From Methylobacterium sp. J-078 (GTDB taxonomy: Bacteria > Pseudomonadota > Alphaproteobacteria > Rhizobiales > Beijerinckiaceae), in NCBI RefSeq assembly GCF_022829285.1, contig NZ_JAKSYI010000081.1, positions 1 through 64,000 of the forward strand: a DNA stretch of 64,000 bases, read 5' to 3'. A model generated the notes under the pieces. The model saw nothing but the letters and a program-made list of their open reading frames with translations. It was not told the origin of the DNA and ran no database searches. Position 1 is the stretch's first letter. The number at the start of each line of letters is the position of its first letter. This document shows positions 12,815-17,089 of this stretch, piece after piece. Made by a program: the position numbers and the translations under genes.

Positions 12815-12857
12815 TTGACGAATAATTAACCTCAGATTTACTGACATACCTGAGGTT
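12815..12857 (+). promoter_or_regulatory. Promoter overlapped by a long inverted repeat
   Basis: TTGACG at 12815-12820 and TTTACT at 12837-12842 are separated by 16 bases and form a sigma-70-like promoter. AACCTCAG (12828-12835) and CTGAGGTT (12850-12857) are perfect inverted 8-mers flanking the -10 region. This layout is what a dimeric repressor needs to block the promoter of the operon starting at 12873; as RNA it could also fold into a hairpin. No regulator gene is adjacent. Confidence 0.45.
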
Positions 12858-12872
12858 GGTTCGGGGTTCGGC

Positions 12873-13874
12873 GTGGCGTTTGTCGGGACAGTCATTCGGG
12901 TGTGCGTCGCGCTTCGCGCGATCCTCGCGCCACCCGTACCCGTCATCGCCGCGCTGCTGCCCACCGGCGCCGCTGCCCGGGACGTGGTGCTCCCCTGGCA
13001 GGAGACGGTGCAGATCGAGCACCGGGACCGGACCGAGCGCCTGCGCCGGCTCTCGGACCAGGCGCTCGCGGCCAGCCCCCGGTTCTTCGAGGAGCGCGTC
13101 TCCCGCGGCGAGCTTCCGGCGACGTTCGGCACGGACATCCCCGTGCTGCGCGTGGTCTTCCCGCAGCGGGTGTTCTTCGACACCGACGCATTCGAGGTTC
13201 GAGCGGAGGCGCAGGCCGTCATCGACGTGGTGGCCGCCGCCCTGCGCCGCGAGGCCTCCGACACCGCCGTCTTCATCGCGGGCCACACCGACGACCGCGG
13301 CAGCGACGCCTACAACTACGCCCTCTCCGTGAAGCGGGCCGACAGCGTCGCGCGGGCGCTGGCCGCCCGGGGCGTGCGTCAGGCCAGCGTCTGGCGCGTC
13401 GGGTTCGGCGAGGCGATCCCGGTGGTGCCCAACACCTCCGACACCGCGATGGGGCGCAACCGCAGGGTCGAATTCCTGTTCGGCCGCAAGGCGGAGGCCG
13501 TGGGCGTCTGGCTGGCCAAGCAGGAGGCGCGCGTCTGCGCGGGCGCCGGCGAGAGCCAGCGCGCGGAGTGCCTGCGCGCCTTCGCGGCGCTGCCCCGCGT
13601 CGAGGCCGCCCCCGTGCGCACGGGTCGGGAGGCCCGGACCCTGGTGACGCCGCCGCCCTCGGACGCCGTCCCCGTCCTGCCCACCATCGAGACGAAGAAC
13701 CTCGTGGCGGTCGGTCCGCCCGTCCCCCCGGCCCTGGTCGCCCCGGAGCGCATCGCGCCCGCGCCCGTCCCGGCCCCTCCGATCGACAGGACCGTGGTGA
13801 CGATCACCCGGGACGAGCCCGTGATCATCGACCTGCGTGAGAAGCGTGTGCTCGTGGAAAGGCTGGAGCGATGA
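12873..13874 (+). CDS. OmpA-family peptidoglycan-binding protein
   Basis: A 333-residue protein with an N-terminal hydrophobic segment consistent with a signal peptide or anchor, then an OmpA C-terminal-like domain at about residues 90-210. Characteristic features are VFFDTDAFEVRAEAQ, the peptidoglycan-binding GHTDDRGSDAYNYALSVKRAD and NRRVEF. After it comes a Pro/Val-rich linker to residue 300. Translation starts at GTG 12873. It overlaps the next gene by ATGA, so the two are coupled. It likely ties an inner-membrane assembly to the cell wall; the first gene of an unusual envelope operon. Confidence 0.8.
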   Translation: MAFVGTVIRVCVALRAILAPPVPVIAALLPTGAAARDVVLPWQETVQIEHRDRTERLRRLSDQALAASPRFFEERVSRGELPATFGTDIPVLRVVFPQRVFFDTDAFEVRAEAQAVIDVVAAALRREASDTAVFIAGHTDDRGSDAYNYALSVKRADSVARALAARGVRQASVWRVGFGEAIPVVPNTSDTAMGRNRRVEFLFGRKAEAVGVWLAKQEARVCAGAGESQRAECLRAFAALPRVEAAPVRTGREARTLVTPPPSDAVPVLPTIETKNLVAVGPPVPPALVAPERIAPAPVPAPPIDRTVVTITRDEPVIIDLREKRVLVERLER

Positions 13875-15162: not shown

Positions 15163-16440
15163 ATGCCGCGCTCCCCGCTCAAGGCCCTCCTCGCCGGATG
15201 CTTCGCCACGGCCGCGCTCGCGTCCGGACCCGCCGATGCGGCGGCGAGCTACGAGGTCGTCCGCCAGGAACAGACCTGCCCCAAGGAGCGCCAGCCCCGC
15301 TCCCTGCGCCAGACCCTCGTGATCCTCGACGAGGCGATCGTGTCGGCCGAACCGGAGGCCAACCAGCGCTGGACCCGGATGGTGGTGGAGGCCGCCGACG
15401 CCCGAGACGCGGGCACCGGCGGGCTCGGGACACGCGAGCGCTTCACCCTCCTCGTCGCGCGGCGCGACGGCAGCGAACTCGTACCGCTGTTCTTCGGCTG
15501 CTCGCCCAACCTGCCGCCGGAGGAGAGCGAGCGGGCCAAGGCGGGTGATTCGATGTTCGACCGCTTCATCGGCAGCGACAGCGAGGCCCGGCGCAAGGCG
15601 GCGCGGGACGCCTTCGCGGCCGGCCTCGCCCGCGCGCTCGCCCAGGTGCAGAAGCGCGCCCCCGAGATCGCCGCCCGGCCCGCTCCGGCGGACAGCCTCC
15701 TGAAGGCGCTCCAGAACGCCGGGCGCCTCGCCGATCTCAACCACGGCCTGCCCCGCATCATCCTGGTCACGCCCTTCGGGGTCGCCGAGAAGGGCCGCAC
15801 CGGCGATGTGCCGGCGGCGCGGCGGGCCGGCTTCGAGCTGGCCGAGCGCAGCGCCATCGATTTCGGCCGGGCGGAGGTTTACCTCGCCGGCGCGGCCCTG
15901 AGGGACAGCGCCCCCCTCGAATTCGCCCGCGCCCTGGTCCTCGGCGCCAAGGGCCAGCTGGTGGGCGTGCGCTCGGACGGTCTGCCCCGGCTGAGCCCGG
16001 AGCCGACCAGCCTGCGCCTCTATGCGGGCTTCATCGACTATGTCGGCCAGCGCACGCCCCTGCAGGTGCGGCTGGCCGCCTCCGCCCAGGGCGATCTCGT
16101 CAACAGCTGGGTCGAGACCACCTTGAGCCGCACCACCGCGACGCCGCTGGCCGGCAAGATGCTGTGCCGGGGCCAGGAGAAGGGTCAGGCCCCCGGCGAG
16201 GTCTGCGAGGTGCGCGGCGACGGGCGCTTCGCCCAGGTCTGGTTCCCCGATCCGCAGGCCGAGCCCGCCGACCGGGGCAAGCTGCCCTTCGGCGGGGCCC
16301 GCACCATCGCCCTCGACCTCAAGGGGCGCATTGCCGCGGGCCGCATCCTCGATCCGAAGGTGATCTTCAGCGGCGAGAACGGCCAGCGCCGCGAGGAGCT
16401 GACCTTCGAGATCCAGCGCGTCGAGGACGGCCAGTTCTGA
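15163..16440 (+). CDS. Secreted protein with possible vWA-like fold, unknown
   Basis: A 425-residue protein with a signal peptide (LLAGCFATAALASGPADA). The mature N terminus shows a strand-type pattern, TLVILDEAIV, followed by an amphipathic segment and RFTLLVARRDGSELVPLFFGC. This is reminiscent of a divergent von Willebrand A/Rossmann-like fold whose metal site may be lost. Later RIILVTPFGVAE and EVYLAGAALRD supply further beta strands. Cysteines at CPKER and FFGCSPN may pair. It lies 17 bases after the membrane gene and belongs to the same operon. The domain assignment is tentative. Confidence 0.7.
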   Translation: MPRSPLKALLAGCFATAALASGPADAAASYEVVRQEQTCPKERQPRSLRQTLVILDEAIVSAEPEANQRWTRMVVEAADARDAGTGGLGTRERFTLLVARRDGSELVPLFFGCSPNLPPEESERAKAGDSMFDRFIGSDSEARRKAARDAFAAGLARALAQVQKRAPEIAARPAPADSLLKALQNAGRLADLNHGLPRIILVTPFGVAEKGRTGDVPAARRAGFELAERSAIDFGRAEVYLAGAALRDSAPLEFARALVLGAKGQLVGVRSDGLPRLSPEPTSLRLYAGFIDYVGQRTPLQVRLAASAQGDLVNSWVETTLSRTTATPLAGKMLCRGQEKGQAPGEVCEVRGDGRFAQVWFPDPQAEPADRGKLPFGGARTIALDLKGRIAAGRILDPKVIFSGENGQRREELTFEIQRVEDGQF

Positions 16441-16546
16441 CGGCATCCCGGCACATTCCATGACCGCGCGCTCCCGGGGCCGGGGCCGCGGGACCGCGCG
16501 CCAGACCGGCGCCAGCCAGCACGCACGGCCCCGGGGGCGATGGACG

Positions 16547-17089
16547 ATGATGACACGGACGGTACGAACGATCGGCGCGGCCCTGTGCCTCGGCGCGGTC
16601 CTGGCCGGATGCACGAGCACGCGGGGCGGCGGTGCCGCCTCGGCGGGCCCCGGGGGCTCGATCGACGAAGCGGTGAGCCGCTGCATCGCCTCGACCCTGG
16701 TAGGGGCCGGCGTCGGAGCCCTGCTCGGGGCGGCGGTGGGCGGCGGGCGCCGGGCCGGCGTGGGCGCCGCCATCGGGGCCGGCGTCGGCGGCCTCGCCTG
16801 CACCGTCCTCACGGCCCTCGACGCCCAGGACAAGCAGCGGATCCGCAACGCGCAGATCGCGGCCGCCGCGACGAACAGGCCGCAATACCTGGCCTATCAG
16901 GGCGCCGACGGCGCCCAGCGGGCGATCACCGTGCGGCCGCAGCCCGCCCCGGCTCAGGCGGCGACGGGAATCCCGGACCGGATCTGCCGTGCCACCGACA
17001 CCCAGGCCACCATCAACGGCACCGGCAGCGCCGAGCTGCCTCAGCAGCTCGTCTGCCGCACGCCGGGCGGCGACTGGCTGCCGGCCTGA
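16547..17089 (+). CDS. Lipoprotein with glycine-zipper segment
   Basis: A 180-residue protein with a lipoprotein signal ending in LAGC, so it is acylated and anchored to a membrane. A Gly/Ala-rich stretch (ALLGAAVGGGRRAGVGAAIG) forms glycine-zipper-type helices as in surface-antigen-like lipoproteins. The C-terminal domain has Cys pairs (ICRATD and LVCRTPGGDW) as in periplasmic beta folds. The start is placed at 16547; a longer reading to 16460 adds an Arg-rich segment that would spoil the signal. Probably the last gene of the OmpA-type operon. Confidence 0.75.
   Translation: MMTRTVRTIGAALCLGAVLAGCTSTRGGGAASAGPGGSIDEAVSRCIASTLVGAGVGALLGAAVGGGRRAGVGAAIGAGVGGLACTVLTALDAQDKQRIRNAQIAAAATNRPQYLAYQGADGAQRAITVRPQPAPAQAATGIPDRICRATDTQATINGTGSAELPQQLVCRTPGGDWLPA

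Follow-up and report, generated by a model that had tools for sequence, protein, structure and literature searches.

Positions 12815-17089 of a 64,000-nt stretch of DNA from Methylobacterium sp. J-078 (contig NZ_JAKSYI010000081.1), in the following called the window, hold four genes, here named A, B, C and D, which are one unit. Hereby, A encodes an exported OmpA-domain protein, B an inner-membrane protein with four transmembrane (TM) segments, C an exported protein that very probably adopts the alpha/beta fold of von Willebrand factor A (vWA) domains, and D a lipoprotein of the outer-membrane type. We propose, with a probability of about 0.55, that the four genes encode a trans-envelope complex which acts as a tether or sensor. 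By profile comparison, B and C appear homologous to an adjacent gene pair in other operons, in which the pair is followed by genes that are weakly ZorA/MotA-like and ZorB-like; the ABCD unit may thus be a sister system of these operons without a motor of its own. Loci and genomes other than the window are denoted below by the letters L and G.

The four-gene unit

All four genes lie on the forward strand, and the coordinates of their open reading frames (ORFs) bear out the ATGA overlap and the short gaps described in an earlier note on this DNA. Gene A (12873-13874, 333 aa, start codon uncertain) carries its OmpA domain, of the peptidoglycan-binding type (Pfam PF00691), at 13173-13463 and ends in a proline-rich C-terminal tail. 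It overlaps by the ATGA with gene B (13871-15145, 424 aa), whose product has long helical N- and C-terminal parts that are probably coiled-coil and cytoplasmic. Gene C (15163-16440, 425 aa; signal peptide assigned by eye) follows after 17 bases and includes the vWA-like domain at 15298-15930 (approximately residues 46-256). After a further 19 bases the ORF of gene D opens at 16460; its start is probably at 16547, however, so that gene D spans 16547-17089 and begins with a short signal peptide and the lipobox LAGC at 16601-16612. The D protein further shows a glycine zipper and a conserved C-terminal tail. Position 12815 itself is a TTG whose frame closes at a stop after four codons, so the stretch upstream of A is non-coding in that frame, and a promoter and terminator scan found neither element. 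The genes are under purifying selection, with ratios of nonsynonymous to synonymous divergence (dN/dS) of 0.16 to 0.55 for A to D between Methylobacterium pairs. The window DNA is Methylobacterium-like, the B protein being 100% identical (best segment) to a contig of a Methylobacterium metagenome-assembled genome and 99% identical to M. goesingense.

B and C are patchy in their distribution and occur together. Among 61 relatives B is present in four, and C in the same four. Even sampling of the class, with 385 genomes, yielded B in eight and C in six, all six being among the eight B genomes (hypergeometric probability 6e-12, genomes treated as independent); the two B genomes without C (G503 and G511) carry a shorter vWA-like partner instead. 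B was detected in 4 of 297 genomes of the order and in 5 of 398 genomes of the phylum, one of the latter (G822, 74% complete) lying outside the class. On plasmids, B and C are found in the same 7 of 72,556 records, of which four are from Rhizobium. Phages contained no relative of B, viral contigs gave no match for the alignments of B, C and their more distant counterparts B3 and vWA3 (see below), and a plasmid search with the pair of L043 was without a match.

Of 24 loci that had been chosen for a B homologue, 22 proved in a profile search to carry the whole set A to D, the two others (L042 and L043) being of the short-partner type. Some of the loci searched had also gone into the building of these profiles; an independent blastp search with the window proteins recovered A, B and C in 16/16 loci and D in 14/16, missing D in L013, where the contig ends after C, and in L025. 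Four of the loci (L022, L046, L047, L048) are near-copies. Thus, the genes stay together where B is present, as the earlier note had supposed, whereas general conservation across the order, which it had also considered, is not seen given the counts above.

Two gene orders exist. The order A-B-C-D is found in Methylobacterium, Novosphingobium and the genomes G112, G087, G593, G698 and G953, the order D-B-C-A in Rhizobium, Agrobacterium, Sinorhizobium and the genomes G554, G646 and G822. On the B tree each order corresponds to a single change, compared with averages of 6.4 and 6.3 in shuffles (0/500 as low), and the split between the two orders has a support of 80/95 and is seen in 92% of bootstrap trees. 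Two individual copies show irregular reading frames. The B gene of Methylobacterium sp. 10 (L019, 10001-11275) contains an in-frame stop with A, C and D open, so this copy is either broken or affected by a draft sequence error. On S. fredii pSfreNXT3b (L024, 9278-9963) the D profile matches two overlapping frames, which suggests a frameshift in D.

Membrane protein B and its invariant residues

In Pfam, NCBIfam, PADLOC and PHROGs, B shows no match over cut-off or beyond chance (best Pfam match RHS_repeat, E 0.0086) and C no match; 11 B and 10 C homologues likewise have no Pfam family of note in common. The best hits in a sequence search of solved structures have E-values of 0.11 for B and 0.44 for C. 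With the B model, Foldseek listed nothing at an E-value of 0.001 or below (lowest 0.21), a result of little weight given the poor membrane part of the model. The statement of the earlier note that the middle two proteins match no known family agrees with these searches, in which the 424-residue protein B received no confident assignment to a well-known family. Its remark that the helices of B lack the MotA/ExbB signature also holds, the corresponding family PF01618 being absent from all 11 members at E up to 1, so that B was rejected by profile as a MotA, ExbB or TolQ protein. Identification of B as ZorA was rejected as well, there being no match to a ZorA model in PADLOC.

Hydropathy analysis of window B yields four TM segments at residues 154-172, 176-194, 226-244 and 272-290. 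At the same threshold 9 of 11 homologues show four or more segments, L024 and L025 three. An AlphaFold model based on seven sequences (mean predicted local distance difference test score, pLDDT, 61.6) shows long helices between residues 52-139 and 299-386. Nine residues are invariant in 19/19 sequences (T51, M54, W57, R66, E163, N167, G201, R245 and N277), four of which, namely E163, N167, R245 and N277, fall within membrane segments or at their ends. Directly past the last segment H292 and D293 are kept in 17/19 sequences, the window having Glu at 292. The same features recur in three B proteins of a more distant group (subfamily 2, see below), where 3/3 keep the HD motif as well as the Glu and Asn residues in TM1 and the Asn in TM4, and 2/3 keep the Arg in TM3.

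Such charged and polar residues within or bordering the membrane helices, along with the glycine zipper of D, would also suit a transport or secretion device, in which B serves as channel or transporter, D as outer-membrane pore and C as substrate or receptor. We consider this improbable, since the module contains no ATPase or motor gene and no substrate gene recurs among the roughly called genes listed beside the loci.

Protein C and its probable vWA fold

The Pfam vWA models miss C and its homologues, and the fold assignment comes from a structural model built from eight sequences, which has a mean pLDDT of 42.3, is uneven but better over residues 41-200 (blocks of 36-75) and lower beyond. 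Foldseek lists Ku70/80, CMG2, Sec24, CLCA1 and others among the best PDB rows. VIA-align, over model residues 47-254, gives a Z-score of 10.0 to 4fx5 (root-mean-square deviation 3.4, 141 residues) with further vWA chains below. Most of the top chains of both searches hold a vWA domain, and 4fx5 is a vWA protein. Because vWA chains dominate the rows of both searches, C very probably has this fold, and the vWA-like fold that the earlier note had suggested for the third protein is thereby supported, by a fold search from a low-confidence model. Four cysteines of C (Cys39, Cys113, Cys335 and Cys348) are each kept in 18/19 rows, and where shown the exception is L026; the conservation counts for C rest on the 18 in-frame rows, the row of L026 being out of frame and its proper C gene existing.

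Proteins A and D and comparison with known envelope systems

Protein A contains an OmpA domain (Pfam E 5e-18, residues 101-197), whose peptidoglycan-binding motif looks intact by eye. The NCBIfam Pal model matches A with E 2e-24 and stays under its cut-off (85.7 of 125.35 bits), and the ZorB models of PADLOC match the OmpA part only (best 2e-14). The N-terminal hydrophobic stretch is without an acidic residue in window A and in 12 of 14 A homologues; in the remaining two, L040 and L045, such a residue lies near the end of the stretch. A lipobox is present in 2/14. Protein D gives weak Pfam glycine-zipper matches, the best of which (Gly-zipper_YMGG, E 1e-6) is 0.2 bits below cut-off, and all eight aligned D proteins have a lipobox-like stretch (that of L022 assigned by eye).

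With Tol-Pal the unit shares the combination, in one operon, of a wall-binding OmpA-domain protein, an outer-membrane lipoprotein and an inner-membrane partner. It differs in that TolQ, TolR, TolA and TolB are all missing among the four proteins and B has no MotA/TolQ/ExbB profile; as the only common component is an OmpA-domain protein below the Pal cut-off, ABCD as Tol-Pal is ruled out. ABCD could still serve envelope maintenance, as a passive tether in the manner of Tol-Pal that joins outer membrane, wall and inner membrane under stress. The shared combination of proteins, the lipobox of some A proteins, as in Pal, and the site behind degP in Methylobacterium (see below) speak for such a role. 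Since ABCD was not found in 57/61 relatives and is therefore dispensable, and no blastp match to DegP is among those listed around loci outside Methylobacterium, we regard maintenance as possible and on the whole unlikely.

The Zorya systems of types I-III are likewise located in the envelope and combine a peptidoglycan binder of the OmpA type with a membrane protein whose cytoplasmic part is long and helical. According to PMC11890865, Zorya depends on wall binding, the ZorA tail and ion flow. The ABCD proteins differ, in that B has no ZorA profile and 12/14 A proteins have no acid-bearing membrane helix, which by these features rules out ABCD as Zorya. PADLOC showed no ZorC, ZorD, ZorE, ZorF or ZorG model among the four ABCD proteins, to which this search was confined; ZorF and ZorG are described in PMC8565338 as DUF3348 and DUF2894 proteins. 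The earlier note had felt reminded here of stator-like or Zorya-like pairs. For ABCD itself this comparison falls on the two differences named, and it has some basis at one remove, as distant relatives of B and C adjoin a weakly ZorA/MotA-like gene and an OmpA-family gene.

In PMC12204202, vWA proteins are proposed as force transducers of TolQ-like motors. Common to these and C is a periplasmic vWA domain, which in that source is proposed to work with an envelope motor; the transducers have a membrane helix of their own and are paired with TolQ-like genes, whereas C carries a signal that looks cleavable, lacks a neighbouring motor gene and has another protein, B, as its membrane partner. Searches of PubMed Central, which does not extend to subscription papers and preprints, yielded no description of family B or of the A-B-C-D set, nor of the operon type described next.

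Distant relatives of B and C

A search with the B protein of G503 gave matches in 7/190 genomes of the class, some with E-values near 1e-3. Profile-profile comparison by hhalign links B to two outer subfamilies, subfamily 2 (probability 99.0, E 6e-18) and subfamily 3 (96.3, E 1.6e-9), and C to the partners encoded beside them (93.4, E 2.5e-7, and 93.0, E 3.4e-7), where the E-values are for single pairs, the outer profiles hold three rows each and coiled coil can inflate the B match. The two outer subfamilies also match each other. The vWA-like partners carry one Cys ahead of the first strand and another with Pro after it, which hhalign aligns with Cys39 and Cys113 of C. Taken together, these profile comparisons indicate that B and C are homologous to an adjacent gene pair in other operons.

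In L058, L059 and L060 the gene next after this pair reads as ZorA/MotA-like and the one after that as ZorB-like; in L057 two such genes come after one intervening gene. The third protein of L059 matches PADLOC ZorA2 with E 7.6e-4, within its coil part, and L058 matches NCBIfam ZorA with E 0.075. As for the OmpA domain, the match exceeds the cut-off in L074 (E 1.7e-6), whereas L060 gives a weak one (E 0.0014) and L057, L058 and L059 give none. The likeness of the genes after the pair to ZorA/MotA and ZorB is thus weakly indicated at the sequence level. Identification of B3 and its vWA partner with ZorF and ZorG was rejected, PADLOC giving no ZorF or ZorG match for the pairs of L058 and L059 and for B3 of L060. 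A further candidate B relative in L061 (G463) was dropped, as its blastp E-value was 0.40 and its sequence has the look of a spurious frame.

In the plasmid collection 22 records contain the subfamily-3 B protein (B3), and all of them are among the 24 that contain its vWA partner, the two lying within about 1 kb of each other each time. The six plasmid loci L074-L079 have the same order in 6/6, namely B3, vWA protein, coiled-coil membrane protein and OmpA-type protein, as in R. johnstonii 3841 pRL11 (L074, 7947-12358; RL_RS31080-31095); plasmids with this B3-type operon come from rhizobia, Microvirga and Paracoccus. Five of the six carry an OmpA annotation on the fourth gene, which in the sixth reads as such, and its product has an N-terminal membrane helix with a Glu in 6/6 (by eye). 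Compared with ABCD, this operon begins with profile homologues of B and C, whereas the coiled-coil membrane protein and the OmpA protein with its Glu-bearing helix replace A and D; its vWA protein starts with a membrane helix (by eye) and is without the C-terminal ~170 residues of C. Both types occur on S. fredii pSfreNXT3b, about 9 kb apart. On this plasmid a gene for a CHAT-domain protein and a companion gene (L075, 16047-18052) adjoin the B3-type operon, with ABCD a few kb off. In the genome of the window, contig C108 of G000 (19261-19446) shows a marginal match to the subfamily-3 B profile (E 0.0055).

The chromosomal site in Methylobacterium

In Methylobacterium the module sits between degP and a small gene (18614-19087 in the window), which is followed by a second small gene and kdsA. 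Seven sites around kdsA (L067-L073) were taken from relatives without B, of which L070, L072 and L073, without degP or the small genes, were left out of the comparison. In the remaining four, L067, L068, L069 and L071, degP adjoins the small genes with gaps of 387, 277, ~274 and 1,360 bases, respectively, and no remnants of A to D were found in these gaps at E up to 0.01. Between L068 and L009 homology resumes after 25 bases, the occupied site having 4,360 extra bases that hold A to D. This comparison is clean and shows ABCD as an insertion or loss of 4.36 kb; the empty sites of L067 and L071 have less sharply defined edges.

Synonymous divergence (dS) between the window and L010 is 0.58 to 0.82 for the module, 0.60 for kdsA, 0.71-0.72 for the small genes and lower, 0.32, for degP. 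L009, which has the module, and its close relative L067, which does not, differ by dS of 0.15 in kdsA, 0.21 in degP and 0.26 and 0.65 in the small genes. The divergence of the module, about like that of its flanks, and its housekeeping location agree with vertical descent with loss, and the site data fit an old presence followed by losses; some lines may have gained the module.

Between D and the small genes the window holds an aminotransferase-like gene (17173-18549) that is not there in L009, L010 and L011; L014 has an ORF like it. A homologue lies upstream of the second small gene in L070 (G022). Outside Methylobacterium, the module of L044 (G953, 7597-14366) apparently lies between a FabG-like gene and acpP/fabF-like genes (names assigned by eye).

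Neighbouring genes and a possible role in defence

The four loci from Rhizobium, those of Agrobacterium and L039, all of the D-B-C-A type, encode after A a secreted-looking protein E of 269-307 aa. Full-length relatives of E (80% coverage) are found in five plasmid records, all of them among the seven ABCD carriers, and partial matches in eight other plasmid records. Protein E belongs to no Pfam family and has no PDB relative up to E 1; its motifs resemble those of ClpP-like periplasmic proteins, which is a lead only. Stretches in L040 and L045 that had been taken for gene E are not E. In L025 (Novosphingobium pSA2, 13311-16523) hxsB and hxsC, of the His-Xaa-Ser radical SAM system, occur shortly after D.

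A SNase-domain nuclease behind a membrane helix is encoded downstream of ABCD in L022, L046 and L047 of the R. etli group (Pfam SNase E 3.2e-5 in L022, the one locus of these in the Pfam run), and a SNase gene is annotated likewise in L048. At least 14 of the 22 plasmid records with B3 also have a SNase-type (thermonuclease) gene (PF00565 for the query) no more than about 5 kb from it, and 14 of the 18 best SNase rows are B3 neighbours, several of these plasmids being near-identical; the plasmid matches are the best 60 of more than 5,000 records, only 46 of which reach a query coverage of 80%. Judged by eye, the nucleases of L059, L074, L075, L076 and L078 look exported, and no SNase is annotated in L077 or L079. 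In L058 (G459, 8012-16563) a type III-A Cas10/Csm1 gene (E 2.3e-157) is located ~1.3-1.5 kb downstream of the B3-type operon.

These neighbours raise the possibility of an anti-invader defence, in which ABCD would detect incoming phages or plasmids at the envelope and, much as Zorya does, set off arrest or exported nucleases. The patchy presence in close relatives and the carriage on plasmids point the same way, as does the B3-type operon with its ZorA/MotA-like-reading and OmpA-family genes. Against this stand the lack of a PADLOC family for B, C and D beyond a chance-level match, the commonness of SNase genes on plasmids (in at least 5,000 records, if with the coverage just given) and the housekeeping surroundings and flank-like divergence of the Methylobacterium copies, beside which no effector was recognised by eye. 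We hold defence to be a tentative reading that is rather unlikely to be correct.

Proposed role and significance

A trans-envelope complex, as the earlier note had suggested, is the natural way to read the four genes. In the proposed complex, B would span the inner membrane, its helical N- and C-terminal parts facing the cytoplasm and the conserved polar cluster lying in its membrane helices, and would hold C in the periplasm. A would bind peptidoglycan via its OmpA domain, and D would be anchored in, or inserted into, the outer membrane, so that ABCD would tie inner membrane, wall and outer membrane together. A disturbance of the envelope, be it phage or DNA entry or mechanical damage, may then be signalled to the cytoplasm through B or, alternatively, to the exported proteins that accompany some relatives. 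The comparison with the B3-type operon suggests that B with its vWA partner couples to a wall-anchored device, which could be a motor or a static anchor.

Several observations weigh against this proposal. Both structural models are weak, that of B being poor in its membrane part, and with C Foldseek reached low TM-scores, 0.17-0.25 when taken by model length. The metal ion-dependent adhesion site (MIDAS) of vWA domains, composed of DxSxS, a Thr and an Asp, is degenerate in C: its first Asp is found in 17/18 in-frame rows, the Ser positions are not kept, and a later SD motif of several relatives is SP or TP in Methylobacterium. The profile link to the other operons is subject to the limits of the hhalign comparison given above, and the ZorA-like call within them is weak, with PF01618 matching at E 0.011 in L059 and 0.12 in L058 and not at all in L060, L057, L074, L077 and L078; nor do the fourth proteins of L059 and L060 match ZorB in PADLOC. 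The Methylobacterium copies occupy one fixed chromosomal place adjoining degP, with no effector gene recognised beside them in an inspection of the neighbours by eye. Finally, five MotA/ExbB-type proteins are encoded elsewhere in the genome of the window, so an unlinked motor partner may exist and the term motorless holds for the operon only.

The fold of C and wall-anchored, envelope-spanning systems as such are already known. In a more far-reaching and quite doubtful extension, B and an exported or membrane-tethered vWA partner could form the core of trans-envelope systems that sense invaders, a new superfamily whose parts are interchangeable, combined either with a peptidoglycan anchor and an outer-membrane lipoprotein, as in ABCD, or with a ZorAB-like motor, as in the B3-type operon, and with exported nucleases or other secreted proteins as periplasmic effectors. 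The present analysis places two nameless protein families, B and its vWA partner, in a defined four-gene unit, and a related pair recurs with a thermonuclease gene and what may be a ZorAB-like motor beside it. Should the pair do the sensing, it would offer a small system for asking how Zorya-like envelope machines detect invaders.

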